A stretch of 64,000 bases of DNA from Pseudomonadota bacterium (lineage in GTDB: Bacteria; Pseudomonadota; Gammaproteobacteria; Burkholderiales; Burkholderiaceae_C): assembly GCA_021805805.1 (NCBI GenBank), contig JAJZEB010000001.1:1-64000 (forward strand). The letters run 5' to 3'. Below, piece by piece: positions 3,628-47,202 of the stretch (its first letter is position 1; each line of letters opens with the position of its first letter). The notes under the pieces are model-generated. The model did not search any database. It worked only from the letters and a program-made list of their open reading frames with translations, and was not told the origin of the DNA. Position numbers and translations under genes: made by a program.

Positions 3628-5499
3628 GTGCACAGCGACGGACCGAACCCCGAATCCCCGACCTCGGCCGAAGCGGCGAGCGACGCCGCGGCCGAGCGGC
3701 ACGGGTGCAACCCGATGCGGCTGCTGGACATGCTGCACGACGTTCAGGACCTGCTCGGCTGGTTGCCACCGGCCGCGCTCCGGCGCGTCGCCGAGCGCAT
3801 CGGCCAGCCATTCGCGCAGGTGCATGCCACCGCGACGTTCTACAGCCTGCTGCACACCACGCCGCCAGGGCGCTATCGCGTGCTGTTCTCGGACAACATC
3901 ACCGACCGCATGCTCGGCAGCGCGGAGCTGCTGCAGGCGCTGTGCCGCGCACTATGGGTCGAACCGGGCCACGTGTCCGAGGATGGACTGGTCAGCGTCG
4001 CCACCACATCGTGCACCGGCATGTGCGACCAGGGCCCGGCCGCACTGGTCAATGGCCGCGCACTGACGCGGTTGACCCCGCAGCGCGTCGCCAGGCTGGC
4101 GGAGCTGATTCGCCGGCGCGTGCCGCTGGACGCATGGCCCGCCCACTGGTTCGTCGTCGCCGACCACGTACGTCGGCGCGACTGGCTGCTCGAGCGCCGG
4201 CCCGAGCCCGGCGCGGCGCTGGCCGCGGCGCTGGCGCAAGGTGCCGACTCGGTGCTCGACGCCATCGACCGCGCCGGACTGCGCGGCCGCGGCGGCGCCG
4301 GCTTCCCGACTGCGCTGAAGTGGCGCGGCTGCCGCGATGCACCGGGGCGCGAACGCTTCGTCGTCTGCAATGCAGACGAAGGCGAGCCCGGAACGTTCAA
4401 GGACCGGGTTCTGCTGGCCAGCGAATTCGACCGCGTGATCGACGGCATGGCGATCGCCGCGCTGGTGGTCGGCGCGCGTCGCGGCGTGCTCTACCTGCGC
4501 GCCGAGTACCGGCACCTGCTCGATGGCCTGCACGCGCGGCTGGAGCAACGCCGCGCACGGCGGTTGCTCGGTGCCGACCTGATCGGCCCGGGAGTTGATT
4601 TCGACATCGAGATCCGCCTGGGCGCCGGCGCCTACGTCTGCGGCGAGGAATCGGCGCTGCTCGAATCGCTCGAAGGCCGCCCCGGGCGACCGCGGATCCG
4701 TCCGCCGTTGCCGGTCCACCACGGCTACCTCGGACAACCGACCGTGGTCGACAATGTCGAAACGCTGGCGCTGGCGGCACAGATCGTGCTCGACGGCGCC
4801 GACGCGTTCCGCACCCGCGGCACCGCGTCGTCGCCGGGGACCAAACTGCTGTCGATTTCCGGCGACGTGGAACTTCCCGGGGTCTACGAATATCCGTTCG
4901 GCGTCAGCGTGCGCGAACTGCTCGCCGACTGCGGCGCCAGACAGCCGCAGGCGGTGGTCGCTGCGGGAGCTGCCGGGCGCTGCCTGGCGGCCGACGCGTT
5001 CGACCGCCGCATCGCGTTCGACGACGTCGCCACCGGCGGCTCGATCATGGTCTTCGGCGCAGACCGCGACCTGTTCGAGCTGGCGCACAACGTGGCGCAT
5101 TTCTTCGCCGACGAAAGCTGCGGGCTGTGCACCCCGTGCCGGGTCGGCACCGCGGTCAACGCCCGTGTGCTCGACAAGCTGGCCGCACACCGCGGCAGCG
5201 CAGACGACCTCGACACCCTGCAGCAACTGCACGCGCTGATGCACGGCAGCTGCCACTGCGGCCTGGGCAACAGCGCCACGCTGCTGCTCGACGATCTGCG
5301 CCGCAGCTTTCCGCAGGTGTTCGGCCGCCGGCTCGGTGCAACGCACGCGCCGGCGTTCGACCTCGACGCCGCGCTGGCGCAGGCGCGACGCATGACCGGG
5401 CGCGACGACCCGGGCGCCCATCTCGGCGACCGCGCGCCGCAGGTGCGCGACGCCGATGCGTCGGCGGTACCCGAGAATTCGGCGCGACTGGAGCCGTGA
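3628..5499 (+). CDS. hoxF: NAD-reducing hydrogenase diaphorase subunit HoxF (with N-terminal NuoE/HoxE-like domain)
   Basis: GLRGRGGAGFPTALKW, CNADEGEPGTFKDR, GAGAYVCGEESALLESLEG, ESCGLCTPCRVG; in-frame GTG at 3628. Confidence 0.95.
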   Translation: MHSDGPNPESPTSAEAASDAAAERHGCNPMRLLDMLHDVQDLLGWLPPAALRRVAERIGQPFAQVHATATFYSLLHTTPPGRYRVLFSDNITDRMLGSAELLQALCRALWVEPGHVSEDGLVSVATTSCTGMCDQGPAALVNGRALTRLTPQRVARLAELIRRRVPLDAWPAHWFVVADHVRRRDWLLERRPEPGAALAAALAQGADSVLDAIDRAGLRGRGGAGFPTALKWRGCRDAPGRERFVVCNADEGEPGTFKDRVLLASEFDRVIDGMAIAALVVGARRGVLYLRAEYRHLLDGLHARLEQRRARRLLGADLIGPGVDFDIEIRLGAGAYVCGEESALLESLEGRPGRPRIRPPLPVHHGYLGQPTVVDNVETLALAAQIVLDGADAFRTRGTASSPGTKLLSISGDVELPGVYEYPFGVSVRELLADCGARQPQAVVAAGAAGRCLAADAFDRRIAFDDVATGGSIMVFGADRDLFELAHNVAHFFADESCGLCTPCRVGTAVNARVLDKLAAHRGSADDLDTLQQLHALMHGSCHCGLGNSATLLLDDLRRSFPQVFGRRLGATHAPAFDLDAALAQARRMTGRDDPGAHLGDRAPQVRDADASAVPENSARLEP

Positions 5500-6236
5500 T
5501 GCCCGAACACTTCCTGCTCGACTGCGAGCCGGTGCCGTTCACGCCGGGGCAAAGCGTGATGGCCGCGGCCCACGCGGCCGGACGCTACATCCCGCACCTG
5601 TGCTGGCTGCCCGAACTCACGCCGCACGGTGCGTGCAGACTGTGCACGGTGCGCATCGGCCCGCACCTGGCGGCCGCCTGCACGACTCCGGCTGCGGCCG
5701 GCATGATGGTCGAGAGCCAGACCGCCGAGCTGATCGCCCAGCGCCGCACGATGCTGCAGCTGCTGTTCGTCGAAGGCAACCACTTCTGCCCATCGTGCGA
5801 GCGCAGCGGCAGCTGCGCGCTGCAGGCCACCGCGTACGCGATGGGCATGCTGGAGCCGCACTTCGACCCGTTCTACCCGGAGCGGGCGGTCGACGCCTCG
5901 CACCCGGACATGCTGCTGGACTTCAACCGCTGCATCCTGTGCGCGCTGTGCGTGCGTGCCAGCCGCGAGCTCGACGGCAAGAACGTGTTCGCGCTCGCCG
6001 GGCGCGGGTTGGCCACGCGACTGGTGGTCGACAGCGCCAGCGGCCGGCTGGCCGATACGGCCTTCAGCGCCAGCGACCGCGCCGCGCAGGTCTGCCCGGT
6101 CGGCGCCCTCGTGCCCAAGCGAGTCGGCTTCGCGCGCCCGATCGGGCAGCGCGTCTACGACCTGCACCCGATCGACGAGGCGCGCAGCGGCGACGACGAC
6201 GTTGCCGGGCCGGGCGGCGAGGCTCTCGCGCGATGA
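5499..6236 (+). CDS. hoxU: NAD-reducing hydrogenase diaphorase small subunit HoxU
   Basis: HLCWLPELTPHGACRLCTV, HFCPSCERSGSCALQ, FNRCILCALCVRASRE; ATG overlaps hoxF stop. Confidence 0.93.
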   Translation: MPEHFLLDCEPVPFTPGQSVMAAAHAAGRYIPHLCWLPELTPHGACRLCTVRIGPHLAAACTTPAAAGMMVESQTAELIAQRRTMLQLLFVEGNHFCPSCERSGSCALQATAYAMGMLEPHFDPFYPERAVDASHPDMLLDFNRCILCALCVRASRELDGKNVFALAGRGLATRLVVDSASGRLADTAFSASDRAAQVCPVGALVPKRVGFARPIGQRVYDLHPIDEARSGDDDVAGPGGEALAR

Positions 6237-6265
6237 CCGGATGTCAACGGCATGAGGACTGTCGC

Positions 6266-6808
6266 ATGAACCGCAAGCTGCGCCTGGCCACCGTGTCGCT
6301 GGCCGGCTGCTTCGGCTGCCATATGTCGCTGCTCGACATCGACGAGCGGCTGCTGCCGCTGCTGGAGCGGGTCGATCTCGATCGCTGCCCGCTGACCGAC
6401 ATCAAGCACTGCGGACCCTGCGACATCGGACTGATCGAAGGTGGCGTGTGCAATGCCGAAAACGTCGAGGTGCTGCGCAGCTTGCGTGCACGCTGCGGCG
6501 TGCTGGTCGCGCTCGGCGCCTGCGCCGTCACCGGCGGTCTGCCGGCGCAGCGCAACCATCTGCCGCTGGCCGACGTGCTGCAGACCGTCTACCGCACCGG
6601 ACCGGGGCTCGATCCGGCCAGCGCGATTCCCGACGACCCCGAATTGCCGCTGCCGCTGGATCGCGTCTATCCGGTGCACGAAGTGGTCCACATCGACTAT
6701 GTGCTGCCCGGCTGCCCGCCACCGGCCGACGCGATCTGGGAGCTGCTCGACGCGCTGATCAAAGGGCGCGCGCCGCAGCTGCCGCGGCACCTGCTGCAGT
6801 ACGACTGA
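6266..6808 (+). CDS. hoxY: [NiFe] hydrogenase small subunit HoxY
   Basis: LAGCFGCHMSLLDID, VALGACAVTGGLPAQRN, LPGCPPPADAIWELL. Confidence 0.95.
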   Translation: MNRKLRLATVSLAGCFGCHMSLLDIDERLLPLLERVDLDRCPLTDIKHCGPCDIGLIEGGVCNAENVEVLRSLRARCGVLVALGACAVTGGLPAQRNHLPLADVLQTVYRTGPGLDPASAIPDDPELPLPLDRVYPVHEVVHIDYVLPGCPPPADAIWELLDALIKGRAPQLPRHLLQYD

Positions 6809-6820
6809 CCCCTGCCCCCA

Positions 6821-8287
6821 ATGCCCGATCCGCTCGAAACCGCCTCCGCCCCGACCAACTCGCTGCGCCGGATCGCGATCGACCCGCTGACCCGCGTCGA
6901 AGGCCACGGCAAGGTCACGCTGCTGCTCGACGCCGACGGCCGTGTGCGGCAGGCGCGGCTGCATATTGTCGAGTTCCGCGGTTTCGAACGCTTCATCGAA
7001 GGCCGTCCGTACTGGGAGATCCCGGTCATGGTGCAGCGGCTGTGCGGCATCTGCCCGGTGTCGCACCATCTCGCGGCGAGCAAGGCGCTCGACGCCGTGG
7101 TCGGCGCCACGACCCTGACGCCCAGCGCCGGAAAGCTGCGACGGTTGATGCACTACGGCCAGATCCTGCAGTCGCATGCGCTGCATTTCTTCCACTTGTC
7201 GTCTCCGGACCTGCTGTTCGGCTTCGAGTCCGACGTGGATCGCCGCAACATCGTCGGCATCGCAGAGCGCTATCCGGACATCGCCCGCCAAGGAATCGCG
7301 CTGCGCAAGTTCGGCCAGGAAGTGATCCGGATGACCTCGGGCAAGCGGGTGCACGGCACCGGGTCGATCCCCGGCGGAGTCAACCGCAGCCTGGCCGGCA
7401 GCGACCGCCGCGCGCTGGCCGCCGACATCGACCAGGTCGTGGCCTGGAGCCGCGCCGCGGTGGACATCGTGCGCGCGCTGCACGAGTCCAACGCGGCGCT
7501 GTACGCGCGCTTCGGGCGGGTCGCGGCGGCAAGCATGAGCCTGGTCGCGGCCGACGGCAGCCTCGACCTGTACGACGGCGCGCTGCGCGGGCGCGACGCC
7601 GACGGGCAACTGCTGTTCGACCAGTTCGACCCGCGCCACTACGACCAGCTGATCACCGAGGCGGTCAAGCCGTGGAGCTACATGAAGTTTCCGCACTGGA
7701 GCGCACGCGGCGCCGACGATGGCTGGTACCGCGTCGGCCCGCTGGCCCGGGTGCAGAACTGCGACCGCATGCCGACACCGCTGGCCGAGGCCGCGCGCCA
7801 GGACCTGCTGGCCTTTGGCGGCGGCGCCCCGCTTCACGGCTCGCTGACCTACCACTGGGCGCGGATGATCGAGCTGCTCGGCGCCGCCGAGACCATCGCC
7901 ACGCTGCTCGCCGACGACGACCTGGAAGGGCGCGAGCTGGTCACCAGCGGGCCGCGCCAGCGCGAAGGCGTCGGCGTGATCGAAGCGCCGCGCGGCACCC
8001 TGATCCACCACTACCAGGTCGGCGACGACGATCTGGTCGGAATGGCCAACCTGATCGTCGCCACGACCCACAACAACGAGGTGATGAACCGCGCCGTGCG
8101 CGACGTGGCGCGCAGCTATTTCGACGGCCGCGCGATCACCGAGGGACTGCTGAACCAGATCGAGGTCGCGATCCGCGCCTACGACCCGTGCCTGTCGTGC
8201 GCCACCCATGCGCTGGGGCGCATGCCGCTGCAGGTCGTGGCGCTCGACGCCGACGGCGTCGAGGTCGCGCGACGGGTGCGCGATTGA
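6821..8287 (+). CDS. hoxH: [NiFe] hydrogenase large subunit HoxH
   Basis: N-terminal RLCGICPVSHH and C-terminal DPCLSCATHALG (NiFe ligand motifs). Confidence 0.96.
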   Translation: MPDPLETASAPTNSLRRIAIDPLTRVEGHGKVTLLLDADGRVRQARLHIVEFRGFERFIEGRPYWEIPVMVQRLCGICPVSHHLAASKALDAVVGATTLTPSAGKLRRLMHYGQILQSHALHFFHLSSPDLLFGFESDVDRRNIVGIAERYPDIARQGIALRKFGQEVIRMTSGKRVHGTGSIPGGVNRSLAGSDRRALAADIDQVVAWSRAAVDIVRALHESNAALYARFGRVAAASMSLVAADGSLDLYDGALRGRDADGQLLFDQFDPRHYDQLITEAVKPWSYMKFPHWSARGADDGWYRVGPLARVQNCDRMPTPLAEAARQDLLAFGGGAPLHGSLTYHWARMIELLGAAETIATLLADDDLEGRELVTSGPRQREGVGVIEAPRGTLIHHYQVGDDDLVGMANLIVATTHNNEVMNRAVRDVARSYFDGRAITEGLLNQIEVAIRAYDPCLSCATHALGRMPLQVVALDADGVEVARRVRD

Positions 8288-8748
8288 GCCGCGCGATCCC
8301 GCCGACCCTGGTGCTGGCTTGGGGCAACCCGAGTCGCGGCGACGATGCGCTGGGGCCACTGTTCGCCGACGCGATCGCGGCACTGCAGCTGCCCGGAGTC
8401 GAGTGCCAGTGCGATTTCCAGCTGCAGATCGAGCACAGCCTGGACCTGCGCGGCCGGCAAAGGGTGCTGTTCGTCGATGCCGCGCGCGACGACGCGCTGC
8501 CGGATGGCGCACCGTTCCTGCTGCGCCCGCTGCAAGCGATGCGCGACGCCTCGTTCAGCAGCCACGCACTGAGCCCGGCAGCGCTGCTGCAGGTGTACGC
8601 CAGCACCGAGGCCGACGCGCCGCCGCCGGCCTGGCTGCTCGGCATCGGCGGCAGCGTCTGGGCGCTGGGCGCGCCGCTGTCGCGCGCCGCGCAGCGGCAT
8701 CTGCAGCAGGCGCTGGCCTGGGCCGGCGACTGGCTGCGCCAGCGCTGA
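8284..8748 (+). CDS. hoxW: Hydrogenase maturation endopeptidase HoxW
   Basis: TTG start overlapping hoxH stop; LVLAWGNPSRGDDALGP and VLFVDAARD motifs of the HoxW/HyaD family. Confidence 0.85.
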   Translation: MSRAIPPTLVLAWGNPSRGDDALGPLFADAIAALQLPGVECQCDFQLQIEHSLDLRGRQRVLFVDAARDDALPDGAPFLLRPLQAMRDASFSSHALSPAALLQVYASTEADAPPPAWLLGIGGSVWALGAPLSRAAQRHLQQALAWAGDWLRQR

Positions 8749-8793
8749 GCCGCGTCGCGACACCGGCGGCACCGCTGGCGTACGCTTCGTTCG

Positions 8794-9607
8794 ATGCCCC
8801 ACCCTGCGCCCGACGATGCCACGCTGCTGGCCGGGCGGCCGCTGCGCCAGTGGCGCCGCAGCCACCCGCTGCTCGACGACCTGATCGCACTGCGCCCGAC
8901 GTGCTGGTTCAACCCGGCGCTGGCACCGGCCGCGCAGGCGCTGGGCGACGTCGGCCTGACGCGCGCCGAGGTCGACGCCGCCGCGGCGCCGGCACTGGGG
9001 CCTGGAACTGCCCGGCACCCTGCTGCTCAAGCTCGACAGCGCGTTGCCGATCTCCGGCTCGATCAAGGCGCGCGGCGGCATCCACGAAGTCCTCGCCCAC
9101 GCCGAAGCGCTGGCGCTGGCCAGCGGCCGACTGCGCGCCGATGCCGACTACGCGCAGCTCGACAGCGACGCCTGGCGCGCGTTCTTCGGCCGCTACCGCA
9201 TCGCGGTCGGCTCCACCGGCAACCTGGGGCTGTCGATCGGCATCGTCGGCGTCACCGCCGCCGACAGCCTCGCGGTGGGCCGCCCGTCGGGTTTCGTCGG
9301 CCGCGCGATGCAGCGGCTGATCGACGGCTACTGCACGGTCGACGACGACGCACTGTTCGCGCTGCTGGGACTGGCGGCGCGCACCGAGGACCTCGCGCTG
9401 GAACCGTCGGCGCTGGCCGGGCTGGCCGCGCTCGCCCACCTCGCCGCGCCGGCGCACGCCGCGGCGCGCGCGCGACTGGGACTGACACCGCAGCGGCTGG
9501 CCGCGGCGCACCACATCGCGTGGATGACCGGCGGCGGCCTGGTGCCGCCGGCGCAGCGGCGCGCCGACCTGCGGCGCGCCCGCGCGGTGCTGGCCGAAGC
9601 CGGATGA
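8794..9607 (+). pseudogene. dsdA: D-serine ammonia-lyase (DsdA) remnant with frameshift and large internal deletions
   Basis: Frame 1: [40 protein letters not shown]; then another frame: [39 protein letters not shown]...[11 protein letters not shown] joined to [25 protein letters not shown]...GLVPPAQR. Blocks are collinear with recalled E. coli DsdA, but intervening blocks are absent. Confidence 0.8.
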
Positions 9608-9626
9608 CACCGCGCGCGGGCTGGCT

Positions 9627-11498
9627 TCAGCGGCCCAGCACCAGGTTGGGCAGCGGCGACGCGCCGTCGTCCTTGAAGCCGTTGGGCAGGTCGGTGACGT
9701 AGATCCCGGCCCAGCTCTCGCCGGCCGCGTTCAGCGACGCAGCGCTCAGCGCCAGCCACCCCCCGCGCAGCGACTCGCGCTCGACGGCGACCGCGGTCAC
9801 GCTGGAGCCGGCCGGCGCAGCAGGGTCGAGGGTGTTCATGCTGTCGCCGACCGCGACCACCTTGAACAGCGGTCCGATGGTGCTGCCGTTGAACGCCACG
9901 CCATAGATCCCAGAGGCCGGCGCGTCGGCGATATAGGCCGGGTTCAGCGCACCCTTGAAGATCACGCCGCGGTGGCTGTCGACCGCGGCGAAGCCGGATG
10001 CGCGCCAGCGCGGCGGCTCGGCATCGGTGACGTCCGACGAGCCGCTGCTCGACGGTGCCGCCCCGGAGAAGGTCCAGAACAGGAAGTCCTGGAACTGAGC
10101 GCCGGGATCGGATCCGGCCTCGGCGATCATCCGGATCGCGCCGCTGCGGGTATCGACGACGAACAGCCCCTGGTGGTCAGGCACGTAGCGGGTCGTCTGC
10201 CAGCCGCCGTTGCCGTTGGACGTCGCACCGGACTGGCATGCCGCCTGCAACTGCTTGCTGCCGTCGGTCGGACACGTCAGCGTGACGCCATGCATGCCGG
10301 GGCCGTTGCCTTGACTGTCGAGCGCACCGGTGTCCCACGCGCCCCAGAACGCGACCTCGACGCCGTCGAAGGACAGCCCCTCGCCGACCTGGGTGAACAC
10401 CGGCGACGTCGCCGCCGGGGCGATCGGCGGCAGCGGTGCGCCGGTCTTGTCGGGGACCACGGTGCTGCCGATCTGCACCAGCGGGGTCAAGGTCGGAAGG
10501 CTGGCCAGCGGCGCCAGGTAGATCCCGCCAGCGCTGGGGCTGGCCTCGTTGTCCAGGCCGGTGAACACCACTTGGCCGGCTGCCGCGCTCGGCGGAGCGG
10601 TGGAGCCGAAATTGGTTCCGGCAGGCGCGCTGGCCGTGGCGGTGCCCGGGATCGGAGTGTTGCTGTCGGCGATCACCTGCACCGCAGCGTCGGCCGTCTT
10701 CAGATCGCGGAAATAGATCCCGGTCTTGCCCACGCTGGCGCCGGCGACGGTGTCGGTGTAATTGCCCTTGGTCACCAGGTAGCGTCCGCCGGTGACGCTC
10801 GGCGAACCGGGGAACTGGTCGAAACGCACACCGGTCGTGCTCGCGTTGGGTACCTGCATATAGGCGAACTCGGCCACCGCGCCGAGGATGTTGATTCCGG
10901 TCACCAGCCCGCCTGGCATCGTGGCGTAAAGCCCGGTGGTGCCGATGCGCGTTTCGGTCCCGGTTGCCGGATCGGTGTACGTCCAAACCGGCGTGCTCTG
11001 GCCGCGGGTGGCGACCAGGCCCGAGTCCATGTCGATGCGCGGGATCGACGGGAACTCGTTGAACGTGGCGCCGGTGTTGTTCGGTGCCGGCACCGGCACC
11101 GTGGCGGTATCGGCCACGGTGTAGATGGCGGGTTTCGCCGGGCACATGTCGACGGTGTAGACACCGCGTTGCGGCTGCGCATCGGAGCCTCCGCCGCCGC
11201 TGGCGGTTCTGGCGCGACCGCGGAACACCAGCAGCCCGTAGGTGTTGATCGACGGCTGGTTGTAGCTGAAGAAATTCAGCTGCGGCGAATCGGGCATCAC
11301 CGTGTTGTTGTCGGTCGCGGTTTTCCAGGCCCCGATCACGTCGTTGCCGGGAACGCAGGCGACGACGTTGTCGCCCGGATTCGACGGATCGTAGGAATTG
11401 AGTGGAGTCGTCGCGGTCCCGCCTCCGCCGCAAGCGGCCAGTGCGGCGGCCAGCGCGGTGACGGACAGCAGGTACGACAGCTGACGGGTTGCAGGCAT
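9627..11498 (-). CDS. Large secreted lipoprotein with repeated GIY-type (propeller-like) motifs
   Basis: Lipobox ALAACGGGG; repeated TGIYF, GGIYL, SGIYG, AGIYV segments. Confidence 0.6.
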   Translation of the reverse strand: MPATRQLSYLLSVTALAAALAACGGGGTATTPLNSYDPSNPGDNVVACVPGNDVIGAWKTATDNNTVMPDSPQLNFFSYNQPSINTYGLLVFRGRARTASGGGGSDAQPQRGVYTVDMCPAKPAIYTVADTATVPVPAPNNTGATFNEFPSIPRIDMDSGLVATRGQSTPVWTYTDPATGTETRIGTTGLYATMPGGLVTGINILGAVAEFAYMQVPNASTTGVRFDQFPGSPSVTGGRYLVTKGNYTDTVAGASVGKTGIYFRDLKTADAAVQVIADSNTPIPGTATASAPAGTNFGSTAPPSAAAGQVVFTGLDNEASPSAGGIYLAPLASLPTLTPLVQIGSTVVPDKTGAPLPPIAPAATSPVFTQVGEGLSFDGVEVAFWGAWDTGALDSQGNGPGMHGVTLTCPTDGSKQLQAACQSGATSNGNGGWQTTRYVPDHQGLFVVDTRSGAIRMIAEAGSDPGAQFQDFLFWTFSGAAPSSSGSSDVTDAEPPRWRASGFAAVDSHRGVIFKGALNPAYIADAPASGIYGVAFNGSTIGPLFKVVAVGDSMNTLDPAAPAGSSVTAVAVERESLRGGWLALSAASLNAAGESWAGIYVTDLPNGFKDDGASPLPNLVLGR

Positions 11499-11767
11499 GA
11501 TCGGCTCCTTCGCGCGCCAATACGTAATAGGTTGTTTCAGTCTGTTCTGCGCATCGAATCCGGTCCATGCGCTGGATCAAGCTGCCCTGCGCTCAGGCCG
11601 AGCCTGCGCCGCATGCGCCCCGCCGGAACAAGCCGTGCACGGCGATCGGCGCGCCGCAGCCCCCGACATCAACAACCGCCGCTGCCGCGCGCACCGCACG
11701 GCAGCGGCGATGCGCACAATGCAGCCGACGCGGTGCCTGCGCATCGCGCCGATCCGGAGGTACACAG

Positions 11768-13159
11768 ATGCCAGCAGCAACAGATCCCATCGACCTGATC
11801 GCGTTCGGTGCCGAGCCCGATGCCGCGTGGCGGCGAGCCGCGCTCGACGCCGGATTCGCCTGGCACTCCGCAGCCGACATCGCAGCGCTGCATGCGGCGC
11901 TGCAGCGCAATGGCAATGGGGTCTGCGGCGTCCTGCTCGACTTGCGCGACGTCGACGACGCCGGAGCGTTGCAGGCGCTGGCTGGCGAACTCGCCGCGCC
12001 ACGGCTGCGCAGCCTGAGCGTGCAGCGCAGCGACATGGCAACCAGCGGCGCGCTGTTCGAGCTGGCACTGCGCTATTGCGTCGACAGCCTGGTCGAGCCG
12101 GTTTCGACCACGGTGCTGAAGCTGGCGCTCGACAGCCTGCACCGGCGCCTCCGATTGCTCGGCGAGGCGCGCCAGCGCAGCGCGCCTGCAGGCGCGCTGG
12201 GCGCTGCCGGCGGATTCGGCGGCCTGCTCGGGCAAAGCCGGCCGATGCTGCGTCTGTTCTCCGAGCTGGAAAAGGTCGCCGCCGCCGACGTGCCGGTATT
12301 CATCGCCGGCGAGACCGGGGTCGGCAAGGAACTGGCCGCACGCGCCATCCACGAACTCTCGCCGCGGCGCGGGCAACCGTTCGTCGCCATCAACTGCGGC
12401 TCGATTCAGCCGCACCTGCTGCAATCGGAACTCTTCGGTTATGAAAAGGGCGCTTTCACCGGCGCGAGTCAGCGCAGGATCGGGCGCATCGAAGCGGCCG
12501 CCGGAGGCACGCTGCTGCTCGACGAAATCGGCGACCTTCCGGCCGACGCGCAGGCCGGCCTGCTGCGTTTCCTGCAGGAAGGGCGCATCGATCGGCTGGG
12601 CGGAACCACATCGATCGCGGTCGACGTGCGGGTGCTGTCGGCGACCCACGTCGACCTGGAGCAGGCACAGCGCAGCGGCCAGTTCAGGACCGACCTCTAC
12701 CACCGGCTCTGCGTGGTCGAGATCGACGTCCCGCCGCTGCGCGCGCGCGGCGACGACATCGTGCTGCTCGCCGACACCGTGCTTCTGCGCCACGGCGGAG
12801 CCCCGCCCCGGCGCATCGTCGGCTTCACCGACGCTGCGCTGCATGCGCTGCGCGCGCACGACTGGCCAGGCAATGTGCGCGAGCTGATCAACCGGGTCCG
12901 GCGCGCGATCGTCATGTGCGAAGGCACGCGCATCGATGCCGCCGACCTCGGCCTGAACGCGCCGGCCGACGGCGAGGTTGCGGCGACCAGCCTGGAGCAG
13001 GTGCGCGACCAGGCGATCGGACGCGCGATCAACCTCGCGCTTGAGCGCAACCAGCACATGGTGGTGCGCGCCGCAGACGAACTCGGCGTGTCGCGCGCGA
13101 CCTTGTACCGGCTGATGGAGCGCCACGGCATCCCGCCCGAGAGCCGACACCGCGCCTGA
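11768..13159 (+). CDS. Sigma-54 dependent transcriptional activator with divergent N-terminal (VpsR-like pseudo-receiver) domain
   Basis: [31 protein letters not shown] motifs and C-terminal Fis-type HTH; N-terminal YCVDSLVEPVS resembles non-canonical receivers. Confidence 0.88.
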   Translation: MPAATDPIDLIAFGAEPDAAWRRAALDAGFAWHSAADIAALHAALQRNGNGVCGVLLDLRDVDDAGALQALAGELAAPRLRSLSVQRSDMATSGALFELALRYCVDSLVEPVSTTVLKLALDSLHRRLRLLGEARQRSAPAGALGAAGGFGGLLGQSRPMLRLFSELEKVAAADVPVFIAGETGVGKELAARAIHELSPRRGQPFVAINCGSIQPHLLQSELFGYEKGAFTGASQRRIGRIEAAAGGTLLLDEIGDLPADAQAGLLRFLQEGRIDRLGGTTSIAVDVRVLSATHVDLEQAQRSGQFRTDLYHRLCVVEIDVPPLRARGDDIVLLADTVLLRHGGAPPRRIVGFTDAALHALRAHDWPGNVRELINRVRRAIVMCEGTRIDAADLGLNAPADGEVAATSLEQVRDQAIGRAINLALERNQHMVVRAADELGVSRATLYRLMERHGIPPESRHRA

Positions 13160-13339
13160 ACACGCCGGCGCGGCGCGCGCCAAGTCGCTGCGCCGCCGGG
13201 CCGCCCCAAGATTGCTTGACCCCACGGGGATGAGGCGGGACCAGCGGCCGTGCCTGCGCACGACCGCGCGCCCGCCGAATCCGAGCAGCCTGCAGGCTGC
13301 GAGGTGGAACGGACTGGGCGCAGCCCGGCCCTGGGGCGC

Positions 13340-14671
13340 TCAGAAGCGGTACGGGAAACGGATCGACAGCGCATAGTTCGGCGCATCCGGAGTCAAGCCC
13401 GCCTGCAGCATTGCGCTCAGAGTCAGGTGATCGCTCAACGCGTAGTTGACCCCGAACCCAAGCGAGACGTTGGTGCTGGCGCTGCCGGCGACCGTCTGCC
13501 AGCCCTGGCCGGGCAGTTCGACCCTGGTCGAGCGCGCAATCAGGCTGGTCAGGCTGGTACTGACCGAGGCACGGTCGTTGAGCACCAGCGCGAAGCCGCC
13601 GCCGATCTGCACGCCGTCGCCGAGCTTGACCCGCCCGGGACTGTTGATCGACGCCGGGTCGATGTTGCCGACGCTGCGCGTGACGTTGTACAGATAGCCG
13701 AGGCTGCCGAACAGCACCAGCGGATCGCTGCTGGTCAGGAACGAGACCGAAGGATTGATGCTCCAGACCCCGTTTCCGGTCGGCAGCCGTTGCGGGACCT
13801 GCAGGTTGGTGTTCTGCGCGTCGGGCTGGTAGACCGCGATGCCGAACGGCGAGGTTCCGGTCGGCGCAGTGACCTTCAGCGAAGCGACGACATCGGGGAC
13901 ACGGCCGTGTTCGCGCACCAGACGATAGTCGAAGCCGAAGTTGACGTCGCCGATCGCGTCGCTGCTCACCGTCGACTGGCTGATGGCCGAGCTCGACGCG
14001 TTCTGCCCGGCGCTGAGGAATCGGCTGTTGCGCAAAACGTACGGCAGGTCGATGTTCAAAGTCAGGTCGTCGCCGATTCCGTATTGCGCGGCGAGGTCGA
14101 AAGTGTCGATATGCGCCTTTGTCTGCGCGATCGAAATGTTGCCGAGAAAAATCGCGTCGAGGGCAAGAAAGCCGCTGAGCGCGAGTTCACGTCGGTCGTA
14201 GTAGCTGTCGCTCCAGCCGGCTGTCAGCGTCAGGCGACGGTGGAACAGCGGCGCATGGCCCTGCGCCGCGACCTCGGTGCGGCTTTGCCGCACTTCGCCG
14301 GCCGGCGCTTCGTGCGTCGTGCCCAGCGTCGGCAGCGCCGCATCGGAAGGTGCCTGCGCTTGCGCCAGCACGATGGCGCCGGGTGCGGTCGCAGGCTGCA
14401 CCGGAACCCCGGCGACAGGCTCGCCGCGCAACAGCTGTGCGCCGAGCGGATCACCCGGATAGCCCTTGCCGCGCTGACCCATCTGCAGCTGCACCACCCG
14501 CGCGCGCAGCGCGTCGATTTCCGCGTGCTGCTGCGCGACCTGCCTGCCGAGCGCGCGCACCTGCTGTTGCAGCACGGCTAGCGCGTCGTCGGACGCCGCG
14601 TGCGCCGCAGCGGTGCCGGCGAGACAGCCGAGAAGCGGGGCCGCGACAGCGGCCAGCAAAGGATTTTTCAT
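13340..14671 (-). CDS. FapF-like outer-membrane beta-barrel exporter with N-terminal coiled coil
   Basis: Signal peptide, heptad coiled coil DDALAVLQQQVRALGRQVAQQHAEIDALRARVVQLQ, then alternating amphipathic strands ending IRFPYRF (C-terminal F). Confidence 0.65.
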   Translation of the reverse strand: MKNPLLAAVAAPLLGCLAGTAAAHAASDDALAVLQQQVRALGRQVAQQHAEIDALRARVVQLQMGQRGKGYPGDPLGAQLLRGEPVAGVPVQPATAPGAIVLAQAQAPSDAALPTLGTTHEAPAGEVRQSRTEVAAQGHAPLFHRRLTLTAGWSDSYYDRRELALSGFLALDAIFLGNISIAQTKAHIDTFDLAAQYGIGDDLTLNIDLPYVLRNSRFLSAGQNASSSAISQSTVSSDAIGDVNFGFDYRLVREHGRVPDVVASLKVTAPTGTSPFGIAVYQPDAQNTNLQVPQRLPTGNGVWSINPSVSFLTSSDPLVLFGSLGYLYNVTRSVGNIDPASINSPGRVKLGDGVQIGGGFALVLNDRASVSTSLTSLIARSTRVELPGQGWQTVAGSASTNVSLGFGVNYALSDHLTLSAMLQAGLTPDAPNYALSIRFPYRF

Positions 14672-14737
14672 TGCGATCGTCGAAGTGTTGTTGTCGTGTG
14701 TGTCGCAGTTGCACGGGCCGGCGCTGGCAAGGCCTGT

Positions 14738-15445
14738 TCAGGATCGCGGCATCGCGTTGCGCAGCTGTTGCAGCAACGCCGGCGAGGCGATTCCGGAGCT
14801 GGCGTGGGTCAGGACCGTCAGCACCGCATCGTTGCGCACGGTCTGGCCGTCGCCGGAGATGTGCAAGGCCTGACCGATGGCGCTGCCGAAGGCCTGCGTG
14901 GCCGAACCCAGCGGGGTAACGATCGCCAGCACGAGTCCACCGTGGCCGTCGCTTCCGATCCGGGCGCTCGCGCCCCCGGCGCTGTAGCTGGCCGCGGCTG
15001 CGCCGGGCGCGATCGGCGCCAGCGCGGTGCCGTCGGGCAGCAGCTGGAGCGTGAAACTGTTGGTCGCCTGGTTGGCGTCGCCGGCGACCTGGGTCAGCTG
15101 GCCGATTCCGCCGACCTCCAGTGCACCGCTGGTGCTGCCGGTGGCCGCACCGGAGATGCTGCCCCGGCCGCCTGCGCTGCCGATCCATTGCACCGCCGGT
15201 TGTGCGCCGCCCAGGCCACTGACTTGCAAGGTCCCGCTCGCACCGAGCGCGCCTTGCGGGTTGTTCCAGCTCGACACCAGTTCGAGCCGGAAGCCGGTGA
15301 TCGCGTTGCCGGGAATTCCGCGGCCGCGCGCCTGCGCCAGCTGCGCGTCGCCGACGACGCGGATCGACGGCATGGCCGCAGCGGCCTGCGCGGCCACGGC
15401 GGCCGTCGCCAGCAGCGCGGCGGAGAAGGTTCGCATGGACATCAC
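14738..15445 (-). CDS. Secreted protein in FapE position of Fap-like operon
   Basis: Signal peptide; located between C39 peptidase and beta-barrel genes; Gly/Ser/Ala-rich. Confidence 0.5.
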   Translation of the reverse strand: MMSMRTFSAALLATAAVAAQAAAAMPSIRVVGDAQLAQARGRGIPGNAITGFRLELVSSWNNPQGALGASGTLQVSGLGGAQPAVQWIGSAGGRGSISGAATGSTSGALEVGGIGQLTQVAGDANQATNSFTLQLLPDGTALAPIAPGAAAASYSAGGASARIGSDGHGGLVLAIVTPLGSATQAFGSAIGQALHISGDGQTVRNDAVLTVLTHASSGIASPALLQQLRNAMPRS

Positions 15446-15481
15446 ACACCTCGTGCAGGATCGACCACGACGCGTGGTCGG

Positions 15482-16222
15482 CTAGAAATTGCCGAATTTC
15501 GGTATGCCGAACTCGGCCACCGGAGCGGCCTGGTGCAGCAGAACATCGTGTGCCCGACGCGCGCGCGAGAAGTTGTCTCGCAACAGCGGCGAGTCGGTGA
15601 GGAACGGGCGACCGACGACGGCCAGCACCAGGCCCTGCCAGCTGCGCGCGAAGGTCTCGACGTCGATCGCGCGGTTGCCCAGCGCCGGATCGCTGATGAA
15701 CACCAGGTCGCGGTCGACCTTCTTCACGACGACGAAATGGCTGTAGCCATTGACCTCGAGCAGCACGATGACCGGGATGCGCAAGTGGCGCATCGCGGCC
15801 ATGTTGACCTCGAATCCCACCGCGTGCAGCCCCAGCGTCTCGACGAAGGCCTTCATGTCGAGCATCGAAAATCCGCTCTTCAGCACCTCGGCCGGATGCG
15901 CCACCAGACGCATCATCGCGACGATGGTCTGCGCTTCGCTGAAATGGAAGCCGTAACCGTCGTCGAGCAAGGTGGCGAGCGCCGCGGCGCCGCAGCTGAA
16001 ATCGCGCTGCTGCGCGACCATGCCGCTGTAGCGCAAGGCGCGCATTCCCGACAGCGAGCTTTGCACTGCGAGCCCGGGAACCGGCAGCAACTGGGCTGCG
16101 GCAGCCGCGCGCCACCCCGGCAGCGCCAGCGCCGCGGCGAGCACGCAGGCGCACGCGGCGCGAAGTCCGCGTGCGCGGCGCGACGTGACGAACATCGTGC
16201 GCATCGCGCCGGCCCCGTTCAA
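15482..16222 (-). CDS. C39-family (double-glycine type) peptidase, FapD-like
   Basis: QQRDFSCGAAALATLLDDGYG (Cys), NGYSHFVVVKKVDRDLVFISDPALG (His/Asp). Confidence 0.8.
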   Translation of the reverse strand: MNGAGAMRTMFVTSRRARGLRAACACVLAAALALPGWRAAAAAQLLPVPGLAVQSSLSGMRALRYSGMVAQQRDFSCGAAALATLLDDGYGFHFSEAQTIVAMMRLVAHPAEVLKSGFSMLDMKAFVETLGLHAVGFEVNMAAMRHLRIPVIVLLEVNGYSHFVVVKKVDRDLVFISDPALGNRAIDVETFARSWQGLVLAVVGRPFLTDSPLLRDNFSRARRAHDVLLHQAAPVAEFGIPKFGNF

Positions 16223-17028
16223 GGCGCCTGGATCAGCGACAACCCGTTGTGCTGCAGGTTGCCGACACCCGACGCGACGTTGACGCCGATGTTGCCGGCG
16301 GCGTTGGCCAGCGCACTGCCGTTGATCGCCGCAGTGTTGCTGAACGATCCGCTCTCGGTATTGCCCGACGCGATCTGCGCATTGGTCGCGGTGGCCATCG
16401 CAAGCACCGGGTTGGCGCTCTTGGTGATCGCCATGCCGTTGCTTTGCGCATTGCCGACGCCGGCCGCGACGTTCGCCGTGACGTTGCCCGAAGCGCCGCT
16501 GAGTGCGCTGTCGCCAAGCGCGGCCGCGGTCGAGTTGTTGCCGCTCAGGCTGTTGCCGTTCGCGCCTTGCGTATTGGCGACGCTGGCCGCGCCGAACACG
16601 TTCGTTGCAGCGATCGCAGCGATCGCGGTGTCATTCGACTGCACGTTCTGCGCCCCGGCTGCCGAGTTCAGTCCGACATTGCCCTTCGCGCTGGCTCCGG
16701 CGCTGTTGCCCACCGAGGCCTGCATGCCGTTGGCCGGAGTCGGCGGGTTGCCGTGACCGCCATCGCCGCCGTCACCGTGGTCGCCTCCGGGCGGATACGA
16801 CATCGGCGCCGAGACGAGCACGCCTCCGGTGTTCTGGGTGCTGTCGACCTGCGCGCCGGCGCTGGCGCCCACGGTGATCGAACCCTTGACGACAATGCCG
16901 CCCTGATCATGCCCGTCATGCCCGTCATGCCCGTCATACGGACCCGACGGCCCCGCCTGTGCGGCGGCGGCCGCGAACAGCGTGGCGACGGCGACCGCGA
17001 CCAGCCTGGCGTTGAAGTGGGTGTTCAT
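16219..17028 (-). CDS. FapC-like amyloid subunit with (DGH)n segment
   Basis: Signal peptide, GPYDGHDGHDGHDQGG, repeated GNVTANVAAGVGNAQSNGMAI / GNIGVNVASGVGNLQHNGLSLI units; start overlaps upstream stop. Confidence 0.65.
   Translation of the reverse strand: MNTHFNARLVAVAVATLFAAAAAQAGPSGPYDGHDGHDGHDQGGIVVKGSITVGASAGAQVDSTQNTGGVLVSAPMSYPPGGDHGDGGDGGHGNPPTPANGMQASVGNSAGASAKGNVGLNSAAGAQNVQSNDTAIAAIAATNVFGAASVANTQGANGNSLSGNNSTAAALGDSALSGASGNVTANVAAGVGNAQSNGMAITKSANPVLAMATATNAQIASGNTESGSFSNTAAINGSALANAAGNIGVNVASGVGNLQHNGLSLIQAP
16907..16937. repeat. 9-bp tandem repeat (tcatgcccg x3 plus partial) encoding DGH units
   Basis: Read directly in sequence. Confidence 0.85.
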
Positions 17029-17639
17029 GGAATGCTCCTGGAGTTGGACGAAGGAAGTCCCGGCGCCTGCAGCATGAAGGCGTTGCCGGTGGTATTGCCA
17101 AGGCCTGCGGTCTGGTTCACCTGCACCACGCCGCCGGCGCCGCGAAACGCACCGGGATCGATGCGCGCGGACCGTTCGGCAGTCGGTGCAGGGCCGTTGT
17201 CAGGCCCCGGACTCGGGACCGCGGCGGCCAAGCTGCCTGCCGCCACGATGTGGATCTGGGTGCTGGCGCCGAACAGCGCGACATTGACCTGGCTGTTGCC
17301 TGCGCCGCTGACCTGGTTCAGCGCGACGACGCCGTGCGCGCCTTCGAAGGCGCCTGAGGCGATGCTGCTGCGCAGCGCACCGTCGGTGCCTGCGGCGCTG
17401 GTCGTGAATTGGCCGATCGCGGTCGCGGCCAGGCCCGCGGGCGCCAGCGCCGCGCTGTTGACCTGTGCGTTGCCGCGTCCGGCGGCGACGTTGAGCGCGA
17501 TGTTGCCCGCGGCATGCGCGCCGACTCCGCCCTGCACCTGGGTGCTGTCGTCGGCGTGCGCCAGACCGAACGCTGCAGCGCAGCCGGCGGCGACGCACAA
17601 ACGCCGCAGCGCGGGTGGAGAGATGATCGCAACAGACAT
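17025..17639 (-). CDS. FapB-like amyloid nucleator / subunit
   Basis: Signal peptide; GNIALNVAAGRGNAQVNSAAL, GVVALNQVSGAGNSQVNVALF, GVVQVNQTAGLGNTTGNAFML repeats. Confidence 0.6.
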   Translation of the reverse strand: MSVAIISPPALRRLCVAAGCAAAFGLAHADDSTQVQGGVGAHAAGNIALNVAAGRGNAQVNSAALAPAGLAATAIGQFTTSAAGTDGALRSSIASGAFEGAHGVVALNQVSGAGNSQVNVALFGASTQIHIVAAGSLAAAVPSPGPDNGPAPTAERSARIDPGAFRGAGGVVQVNQTAGLGNTTGNAFMLQAPGLPSSNSRSIP

Positions 17640-17672
17640 CTGGACGCCTCCGGACTCGATGCGTCCCTTCTC

Positions 17673-17687
17673 GCGAAAGTCGTGCCA
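17673..17687 (-). promoter_or_regulatory. Sigma-54 (-24/-12) promoter of the Fap-like operon
   Basis: Minus strand TGGCACG-ACTT-TCGC; differs at one position from TGGCACG-N4-TTGC; 34 bp upstream of the first ATG. Confidence 0.7.
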
Positions 17688-17874
17688 GGACTGGAGTGCG
17701 CAGGCAAGTCCCTGTCGGCACAGGACATTTCGCTGCGCGCGAGCGGCGCGCGAAATCTCCGGCGTCGCAGGCCCGAGACAATCGGGCGCGACGCTGTCGC
17801 AAATCCGAAGCGCCGCAGCGGCAGGTCAGGGTCGGCCCGCTACGACCGGCTCCACGGCGGGGTCTGCACGGGGC

Positions 17875-18207
17875 CTACAGCACGCGCGCCGCGTGCCCTG
17901 CGGTGAACAGCCGCCGCCCGATCGCCTGTTCCCGGCGTTCGAGCTCGCGGCGCCGAAGCTCGTGATGGCTGGCGACTGCGTCGCGCAGTTGCCTGGCCTG
18001 GTCGACCCCCATCAGTCCGCGCATCTGGTCGAACCAAAGCCGCATCGAGCGTTGGTGCCACTCGCTGACCGTCTCGCCGGGCAGACGCCTTGCGGTGTGC
18101 GCCCGCAGATCGCTGCGCGCCCGCGCCTGCGCCTGCGCTGCGCCGCCCCTGGCCATGCGCGCAGCCCGGCCCTGCGGCGCCTGCGCCAACGCCGCCGAAG
18201 CGCTCAT
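17875..18207 (-). CDS. Hypothetical charged helical protein, coupled to GGDEF gene
   Basis: MSASAALAQAPQGRAARMARGG...; start codon overlaps GGDEF stop. Confidence 0.45.
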   Translation of the reverse strand: MSASAALAQAPQGRAARMARGGAAQAQARARSDLRAHTARRLPGETVSEWHQRSMRLWFDQMRGLMGVDQARQLRDAVASHHELRRRELERREQAIGRRLFTAGHAARVL

Positions 18208-19259
18208 GGCGCCGGCGCGTTGCCGAGCGTGACGCGATTGCGCCCGCCGCCCTTGGACGCGTACAGCGCGACGTCGGCACGCTGCAGCAGCGATTCGCGG
18301 GTGTCCTCGCGCAGCCGCGTGGCCACGCCCAGCGACGCGGTGAATGGCTCGAGCATGAAGTTGTCGCGCTTGCGCACCAGGCGCAGCGACTGGATGCGCG
18401 AACGAATGTTCTCGGCCACTTGCGCTGCGCCCTCCTCGCCGGTGTGCGGCAGCAGCACCAGGAACTCCTCGCCGCCGTAGCGCACTGCGCGGTCGGCGCC
18501 TCGGATGCACTTGCGGATCACGTCGGCGACATTGCGGATCACCGCATCTCCGAGCGCATGGCCGTAGGTGTCGTTGATGCGCTTGAAATGGTCGATGTCG
18601 ACCATCAGCACGCTCAGCGGCGCGCCGCTGTCGACCGCCATCAACTCGTCGAGCTGGGCGTCGAGCGCGCGGCGGTTCAGCAGCCCGGTCAGTGGATCGA
18701 GCAGCGCGGCGCGCCGCTGCTGCTCGAGCTCGCCGCGCAACGCTTCGGTCTCCTCCAGAGTGGTCTGCAACTGCTGCTGCAGCTTGTCGTTGTGCTGCAC
18801 AGCGCTGCGTGTGGCGTCGACCAGGCGCACGACGACCTGTTCGATCGCCTGCGCATCCGAGTTCGCATCCAGGTCGTCGAGATGGCCCAGGCTGGCCTCC
18901 AGTTCGCGGCCGAACTCGGCGGCGCCGGCGCCCGCCTCGCCGACGCTTTGCGCCAGCGACTCGACCAGCTGCTGCAGGTTGCCGCCGACTCCGCGCAGGT
19001 TGCGGTACGGATCGATGGCCACGAAGCGTTCGTGCAGGTCGCTGAACAGGAAGGCATCCAGACTGCGACCGGATTGCAGGCGCTGATCGATCGTCGCGCG
19101 CAGTTCTTCGTGGGTTCCGGCCGCGTACAAATAAGCGACCGCGTAATGCTGTGGGGTCGGAGCGATCCGATGCGCGATCAGCAGTTCGAAGGAACGCTCG
19201 GCCAGATTTCTGGCTTCGGCAAAATCGTGGTTCAGCTGCTTGGTGGCGACGGCGGGCAT
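18204..19259 (-). CDS. Diguanylate cyclase (GGDEF, RYGGEEF)
   Basis: LLDPLTGLLNRRALDAQL, DIDHFKRINDTYGHALGD, VRYGGEEFLVLLPHT. Confidence 0.92.
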   Translation of the reverse strand: MPAVATKQLNHDFAEARNLAERSFELLIAHRIAPTPQHYAVAYLYAAGTHEELRATIDQRLQSGRSLDAFLFSDLHERFVAIDPYRNLRGVGGNLQQLVESLAQSVGEAGAGAAEFGRELEASLGHLDDLDANSDAQAIEQVVVRLVDATRSAVQHNDKLQQQLQTTLEETEALRGELEQQRRAALLDPLTGLLNRRALDAQLDELMAVDSGAPLSVLMVDIDHFKRINDTYGHALGDAVIRNVADVIRKCIRGADRAVRYGGEEFLVLLPHTGEEGAAQVAENIRSRIQSLRLVRKRDNFMLEPFTASLGVATRLREDTRESLLQRADVALYASKGGGRNRVTLGNAPAP

Positions 19260-46252: not shown

Positions 46253-46785
46253 TGGACAAGACCGCGTTCGATCTGGCGCGGGTGTATCAGCTGCTCGAGC
46301 CTGGCCCGGTGCTGCTGCTGGCCACGGCCGGTACGCAGCGGCCGAATGTGATGACGCTGAGCTGGCAGACGATGGTCGAGTTCGAGCCGCCGCTGGTGGC
46401 CTGCGTGCTCAGCCCCTCGGACTACAGCTTCGCCGCGCTGCAGCGCGACGGCGAATGCACGCTGAACGTTCCAGGCGCCGAGCTCGCCAGCCAGGTCGTC
46501 GGCTGCGGCAATTGTTCGGGACGCGATACCGACAAGTTCACCGCTTTCGGCTTGACTCCGCGACCGGCCGAGATCGTCGCCGCGCCGCTGGTCGACGAGT
46601 GCGACGCGAGCCTTGAATGCCGCGTCGTCGACCGCAGCATGGTCGAGCGCTACGGCCTGTTCATGCTCGAGGTCGTCCGCGCCTGGCGCCGCGGCAACGG
46701 CCCGGAGCGGTTGCTGCACCACGCCGGCTGGGGCGTGTTCCGGGTCAGCGAAGAAACGATGCGCCTGCCGTCGGCGATGCGTTAG
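46252..46785 (+). CDS. Flavin reductase family protein
   Basis: GPVLLLATAGTQRPNVMTLSWQTMVEFEPPLVACVLSPSDYSF...CTLNVPGAELA. Confidence 0.85.
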   Translation: MDKTAFDLARVYQLLEPGPVLLLATAGTQRPNVMTLSWQTMVEFEPPLVACVLSPSDYSFAALQRDGECTLNVPGAELASQVVGCGNCSGRDTDKFTAFGLTPRPAEIVAAPLVDECDASLECRVVDRSMVERYGLFMLEVVRAWRRGNGPERLLHHAGWGVFRVSEETMRLPSAMR

Positions 46786-46894
46786 CGCGGCCGCATCGAC
46801 ACGCGTCATCGGCAGCTGGCCACGCCCGCGGGCGCGGCCAGCTGCGCCGCGATGCTTGCCAGCGCATCGGGGATCGCCTACCATCTGTCGTAAC

Positions 46895-46907
46895 GCGAAC
46901 CATTCGC
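46895..46907. promoter_or_regulatory. Short inverted repeat upstream of feoA (possible iron-regulator site)
   Basis: GCGAA-CCA-TTCGC; weak resemblance to a Fur box. Confidence 0.3.
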
Positions 46908-46929
46908 ATTCCCAACAGTAGGTCGAGCC

Positions 46930-47202
46930 ATGCCCACCGTGCCCCCCACCCAGCCGACGATCCGGGCACTGGCCGCGCTGCGCCGCGGTCAGCGCGCACG
47001 CATCGCCGCGGTCGATTCGGCCGGCGGTCTGCCGCAGCGCGTCGCGATGCTGGGCCTGCGCCGCGGCGTCGAGCTGCACGTGGTGCTGGGACCCGATGCG
47101 CGCGGCGCCGTCGTGCGCGTCGGCGCCGCACGCATCGCGCTGGGCCGCGACATCGTCGAGCGCATCGCGGTCACCGCACTGTCCGACGCGGAGCCGCGCT
47201 GA
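46930..47202 (+). CDS. feoA: Ferrous iron transport protein A
   Basis: RALAALRRGQRARIAAVDSAGGLPQRVAMLGLRRGVELHVV (FeoA SH3-like). Confidence 0.9.
   Translation: MPTVPPTQPTIRALAALRRGQRARIAAVDSAGGLPQRVAMLGLRRGVELHVVLGPDARGAVVRVGAARIALGRDIVERIAVTALSDAEPR

Follow-up and report, generated by a model that had tools for sequence, protein, structure and literature searches.

The fapABCDEF operon of Pseudomonas, which encodes a functional amyloid (Fap) that forms the sticky fibres of biofilms, and the fapA-less operons of other genera are the closest described systems for the locus treated here, a gene cluster in a 64,000-nucleotide (nt) stretch of DNA from a member of the Burkholderiales (contig JAJZEB010000001.1, positions 1 to 64,000; hereafter the window). 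In Pseudomonas, secretion of FapC needs the catalytic cysteine of the peptidase FapD, and a CxxC motif in FapC has been described as conserved (PMC6173800). Operons without fapA are the commonest variant, found in 6 of 16 genera, and a fapA deletion in Pseudomonas leaves Fap-dependent biofilm standing, making fapA dispensable (PMC3792158). As to control, rpoN and brfA mutants of Pseudomonas fluorescens PF07 lose fap expression, the fap promoter being of the -24/-12 type (PMC9207406), and BrfA senses cyclic di-GMP (c-di-GMP; PMC13101488). We report that the window very probably contains a complete, fapA-less fapBCDEF operon together with a dedicated sigma-54 activator gene, predicted from sequence to form a biofilm system controlled by a BrfA-type activator and RpoN.

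Results

Five minus-strand open reading frames (ORFs) occupy positions 13340-17639, exactly where a sequence-only reading of the window had put them, and they are as tightly coupled as it had proposed, with intergenic gaps along fapB-fapC-fapD-fapE-fapF of -4, -4, 36 and 66 nt. The Pseudomonas gene order that it had assigned is recovered by the NCBIfam Fap profiles, each of which matches in its proper place: FapB, the putative minor amyloid subunit (17025..17639; 204 aa; E = 1.7e-20, 73 bits); FapC, the putative major subunit (16219..17028; 269 aa; E = 3.9e-20, 73 bits); FapD, a predicted periplasmic C39 cysteine peptidase (15482..16222; 246 aa; E = 8e-51, 172 bits); FapE, a predicted secreted accessory subunit (14738..15445; 235 aa; E = 6.8e-17 over residues 5-229, 62 bits); and FapF, the candidate outer-membrane exporter (13340..14671; 443 aa; E = 6.9e-95, 318 bits). 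This profile search had been set beforehand as a test on which the proposal could fail, and the proposal survived it. A fapBCDEF operon is likewise present at locus L051 and in genomes G708 and G711.

The sequence of FapF matches the crystal structures 5o65, 5o67 and 5o68 at ~1e-69 across the barrel (1.3e-69 and ~35% identity for 5o65). An AlphaFold model built from nine homologues (mean predicted local distance difference test score, pLDDT, of 68, mostly 80-90 in the barrel) consists of a helix at residues 28-68 (41 residues), a short plug-like helix at 129-138 and then a beta barrel, in agreement with the coiled-coil and beta-barrel outer-membrane protein foreseen from sequence. The best matches of this model among solved folds were all FapF (E = 1.5e-28 for 5o65, with a TM-score of 0.93 when normalised to that target); next came the COG4313 channel 4rl8, whose relation to FapF has been described (PMC6173800). 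The comparison with the FapF structure, proposed in advance as a check, thus came out in favour of the assignment. The P-T-G motif of FapF discussed in PMC6173800 is invariant in the alignment. Sequence and model together fit the Fap exporter, a 12-strand barrel with a periplasmic coiled coil and a plug helix. Because the five profile matches stand in operon order, and because FapF matches 5o65 in both sequence and fold, the locus is a Fap system proper, and the earlier label of 'Fap-like' was too cautious.

The remaining proteins fit this interpretation. FapD matches the Pfam C39 peptidase family (E = 1.7e-22), as had been expected of it, and its residues Q65, C71, H156 and D172 (alignment numbering, counted from an alternative start at 16204) are invariant among 8 homologues; the active site is, as judged from sequence, intact. 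The Fap repeat, coded as G-x-[VILA]-x-[VLA]-N-x-x-[AS]-G-x-x-N-x-[QT]-x-x-N, occurs three times in FapB (from residues 45, 103 and 170) and three times in FapC (from residues 116, 181 and 245), against a mean of 0.0 in 5,000 residue shuffles of each protein. Repeats had been ascribed to the secreted proteins in general; they are confined to FapB and FapC, and FapE is without them. Signal peptides were recognised by eye in the Fap proteins, FapB and FapC among them. FapC matches the chains of solved FapC fibrils (9nqd, 1.1e-13; 9u4u, 3.2e-12), so that the earlier notion of a 'diverged subunit' is somewhat too strong for a protein still recognised by both the FapC profile and the fibril chains. 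A model of FapC (pLDDT 60), whose sole significant fold match was FapC 9u4u at a TM-score of 0.36, adds little owing to its low confidence and the low score. The mature N terminus of FapC is rich in His, Asp and Gly in the window (16870-16955) and in the closest relatives, the stretch after the signal peptide reading GHDGHDGHD in the window and HHHHHHEH in L051; it may bind metal.

Several observations weigh against the assignment. None of the five Fap proteins reaches its NCBI equivalog cut-off (190 bits for FapB, 195 for FapC, 330 for FapD, 250 for FapE and 700 for FapF). However, no FapF match exceeded the cut-off in any of 300 genomes of the order, those with complete operons included, and from this it seems that the cut-offs are tuned to Pseudomonas-like members. 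Moreover, fapA, already invisible to the sequence-only reading, was found by the FapA profile (E<=1) neither adjoining the operon nor anywhere in the draft genome (96% complete), and this profile did not find it in the genus members G708, G711 and G712 either. In four further genomes of the order (G255, G170, G268 and G235) the same profile does detect fapA beside the fap genes; since G255 is the nearest outgroup, the lineage of the window has probably lost the gene, arriving at the variant known to be common (PMC3792158). Finally, FapC contains no cysteine and hence no CxxC. Nine further FapC proteins from the order, checked by sequence, lack the motif too, and we did not count it as a defining trait outside Pseudomonas. 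Apart from CxxC and the optional fapA, every defining Fap feature that can be tested by computation is present. A gene at ~17875-18207 was considered as a diverged fapA and rejected: no signal peptide was seen by eye, and the gene has a conserved counterpart (61% over 72 residues) in G699, a genome without fap, which places it outside the Fap system.

FapF and FapD have relatives that serve other systems, among them the Acinetobacter Fil putative pilus system, which shares with the window a C39 peptidase (FilB) and a FapF-related barrel (FilC). It is therefore conceivable that the window genes export some other surface polymer and make no Fap amyloid, in the manner either of Fil or of a glycine-rich type found in the same family, where FapF/FapD-like proteins do occur with other putative substrates. 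The NCBIfam FilB profile indeed matches the window peptidase at 101 bits and the FilC profile the barrel protein at 42 bits, but the FapD and FapF profiles reach 172 and 318 bits on the same proteins; FilB and FilC are thus not the best-matching profiles, and no sign of a pilus-type substrate was found among the window proteins. In trees, the true-Fap clade includes the FapF and FapD of the window, and the glycine-rich type is split off from it with 100/100 support. With FapB, FapC and FapE all there, and the Fap repeats in the first two, export of a different polymer is largely refuted and we give it almost no credence.

Adjacent to fapF and convergent (tail-to-tail) with it lies a plus-strand gene at ~11780..13159 for a sigma-54 activator; the listed ORF opens at 11567, and homology starts near 11780. 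The product carries the Pfam domains Sigma54_activat (5.5e-65) and HTH_8 (Fis-type, 6e-06), a weak VpsR N domain (3.6e-04) and the GAFTGA motif, and rpoN is encoded in the genome. A fap-adjacent sigma-54 activator with an AAA+ domain, GAFTGA and a Fis-type helix-turn-helix is, by sequence, a candidate BrfA-type regulator. Like PF07, the window has the fapF-adjacent convergent layout, the Fis-type helix-turn-helix and a -24/-12 promoter at the head of the fap genes; the likeness to PF07 BrfA is one of layout and domains, in a system that lies outside Pseudomonas. By analogy, the activator probably responds to c-di-GMP. A diguanylate cyclase gene is encoded nearby (18204-19259, minus strand; GGDEF, 4.7e-44), ~0.6 kb upstream of fapB; its conservation in the fap-less G699 makes it a neighbour outside the block.

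The region upstream of fapB contains a putative sigma-54 (-24/-12) promoter, TGGCACGACTTTCGCGA (17671..17687, minus strand), at a distance of 48 nt from the fapB start codon. In the window, in L051, in L098 (G708) and in L100 (G711), the string TGGCACGRNNTTCGCRA precedes the fapB start by 48-55 nt, and it was found nowhere else in ~1.3 million strand-bases of compared DNA. Further upstream, a 22-bp dyad, ATTGTCTCGGGCCTGCGACGCC (17761..17782, minus strand; core TGTCTCR-N5-TGCGACR), is present at each of the four loci (17761-17782 in the window, 6698-6719 in L098, 6569-6590 in L100 and 4716-4737 in L051), always 73-74 nt ahead of the -24 element. L051 and L100 each possess another copy of opposite orientation, 31 bp farther upstream. 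When each locus in turn was left out of the dyad profile, the window site ranked first of 127,958 positions and the omitted site came first in its locus in three of the four cases, the L051 site being second to the other copy in that locus. Scores of at least 14 were obtained at 5 of 417,850 background positions, and three f28 genomes, closely related and left out of the profile, have pairs of matching dyads ahead of fapB. In a single sequence either element is weak (0.5 matches to the sigma-54 consensus by itself are expected per window, and 1.5 to the dyad with 3 mismatches allowed); the two become convincing only through their conservation with constant spacing across loci, which persists although the surrounding intergenic DNA has diverged. 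The dyad is the putative binding site of the activator. Sigma-70 promoters and terminators were not found above chance. The functional unit accordingly exceeds the interval 13340-17639: the sequence-only reading had the five genes right and overlooked the activator gene and the promoter elements, which extend to 17782.

The fap genes might nevertheless be genuine while the activator is an unrelated neighbour, with control coming from elsewhere, for example from a FleQ-like or global regulator. Such an arrangement would suit the best NCBIfam match of the activator, a PEP-CTERM response regulator family (386 bits, under its cut-off of 502), and its variable orientation, which is convergent and downstream of fap in the window and G708 and divergent and upstream in L051 and G711. 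The linkage itself, however, withstands this rearrangement, being kept wherever a clade member has sufficient contig, and also in other families; the activator tree groups the same genomes as the FapF and FapD trees; G699 is without both activator and fap; and the fapB promoter is of the sigma-54 type with a conserved dyad upstream. Regulation from elsewhere is on this evidence unlikely, and we retain the linked gene as the probable fap activator.

In the trees of FapF, FapD and the activator alike, the window joins L051 first and G255 next. Genus genomes G451 and G532 were too distant to reveal an empty site, and closer relatives were found through CtaD. In G708 the activator and fapFEDCB are bordered by the two genes that also flank the block in the window. 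At this site G708 has 5.99 kb and its sister G699 only 166 bp, and the flanks of the two are 79% and 85% identical; the activator and the fap genes are thus absent together from that site in G699. The block of G711 is arranged differently. The CtaD tree groups the pair G000 and G712 with the pair G708 and G699, and the distribution is therefore most simply read as a single gain ahead of this clade and a clean loss in G699. The FapF and CtaD trees conflict on the position of G712, an incomplete genome. Fap is rare in this lineage: FapF was found in 4 of 28 genus genomes, and FapC in a single genome of the 401 sampled from the family (a sample without G708, G711 and G712). A misplaced contig was rejected as a source of the locus in this genome, the CtaD encoded 11 kb from fap being 94, 89 and 88% identical to that of same-genus members.

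The loss in G699 bears on a further possibility, namely that the window harbours a decaying, non-functional remnant from which fapA went first and the remainder is going. The absence of fapA from the genome and of the entire block from the sister genome would agree with this, as would the FapB relative of G708 (L098 6132-6575; 147 aa), which has only two recognisable repeats as opposed to three in the window. All five window frames are open, however, with their signature residues intact, the promoter and dyad are conserved against diverged surroundings, and fapA-less operons are common and fapA itself dispensable in Pseudomonas (PMC3792158). We regard decay as very improbable and favour a functional operon.

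Because activator and fap genes are missing at the same chromosomal site of G699, the ~6-kb block can be treated as one functional module. A stronger proposal is that fapBCDEF, activator, promoter and dyad form a self-contained cassette of ~6 kb that was acquired horizontally and is gained or lost as a unit. Horizontal transfer of the block is plausible, and we advance the cassette only tentatively, as a rather doubtful reading. The GC content of the block (0.696, with flanks of 0.709 and 0.672) is uninformative on transfer, and no tRNA or Rfam landmarks of insertion were found.

The glycine-rich systems mentioned above constitute a second type of FapF/FapD-like locus in the family (L064 7587-12600, L065 4443-9300, L067 3694-9125 and L070 7354-12595). 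These loci combine a linked sigma-54 activator with a FapF-like exporter, next to which are encoded the C39 peptidase, a secreted protein of ~430-540 aa that is large and glycine-rich (GGxGG), a small secreted protein ending like SGIPVVIQNSGANVLIQNAVILNLQMN and a protein bearing the motif MRGGFD; their putative substrates matched no Pfam or NCBIfam family of note. A FapF-like match was present in 19 of 251 family genomes, and 8 of their loci were examined. The second type is probably an undescribed surface-polymer export system. The two systems coexist in one genome region: L058 (G268) has a true Fap operon at 8456-14401 and, at 551-1276, a second-type FapD.

Elsewhere in the window, plus-strand genes at 5456-8284 encode [NiFe] hydrogenase subunits closest to the models of the F420-non-reducing hydrogenase Vhu (VhuG, 3.8e-38; VhuA, 2.8e-118; both under cut-off), and a plus-strand FeoB frame of 972 aa (46617-49532) has its FeoB GTPase domain from residue 215 only, through either a wrong start or an N-terminal fusion.

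Discussion

Compared with Pseudomonas fapABCDEF, the window has five of the six genes in canonical order, homologous over most of their length, and shares the FapF fold, the three repeats in FapC and FapB, the catalytic residues of FapD and the sigma-54 promoter; it differs in lacking fapA and the CxxC of FapC, in the His/Asp/Gly-rich N terminus of FapC and in the modest FapF identity. With the fapA-less operons of other genera (PMC3792158) it shares the loss of fapA and an intact, contiguous fapBCDEF, but it keeps fapF in the operon and has a linked activator gene. From Acinetobacter Fil it is set apart by its much weaker scores to Fil than to Fap profiles.

Gene content and order, intact catalytic and structural features, the linked activator and the conserved promoter elements are observed directly, and from them a pathway can be proposed. 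Under biofilm-promoting conditions, probably at high c-di-GMP, the BrfA-type activator would bind the dyad upstream of fapB and drive RpoN polymerase at the -24/-12 promoter. Sec would carry the Fap proteins across the inner membrane to FapF, modelled as an outer-membrane barrel, presumably trimeric, gated by its plug helix and periplasmic coiled coil. As in Pseudomonas, FapD may license secretion, perhaps through cleavage of a Fap protein. By homology, FapC, with FapB as nucleator or co-subunit, would assemble outside the cell, by stacking of its three repeats, into an amyloid fibre binding biofilm cells together, while FapA, elsewhere a tuner of the FapB/FapC ratio, would be dispensable here.

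Loss of fapA and a linked regulator are already known from elsewhere, and the operon is a well-supported, fairly ordinary member of the Fap systems; the glycine-rich FapF/FapD-like loci, which lie outside the window, are the more novel lead. The cassette transfer, if true, would run counter to the published account, in which Fap spreads by vertical descent almost exclusively. The analysis provides a predicted DNA site for the activator, TGTCTCR-N5-TGCGACR at 73-74 nt before the -24 element, and a fapA-less operon with a cysteine-free FapC offers a natural comparison for the contributions of FapA and CxxC to Fap fibres. With this locus, a Fap amyloid operon accompanied by a candidate BrfA-type sigma-54 activator is placed among bacteria that seldom carry Fap.

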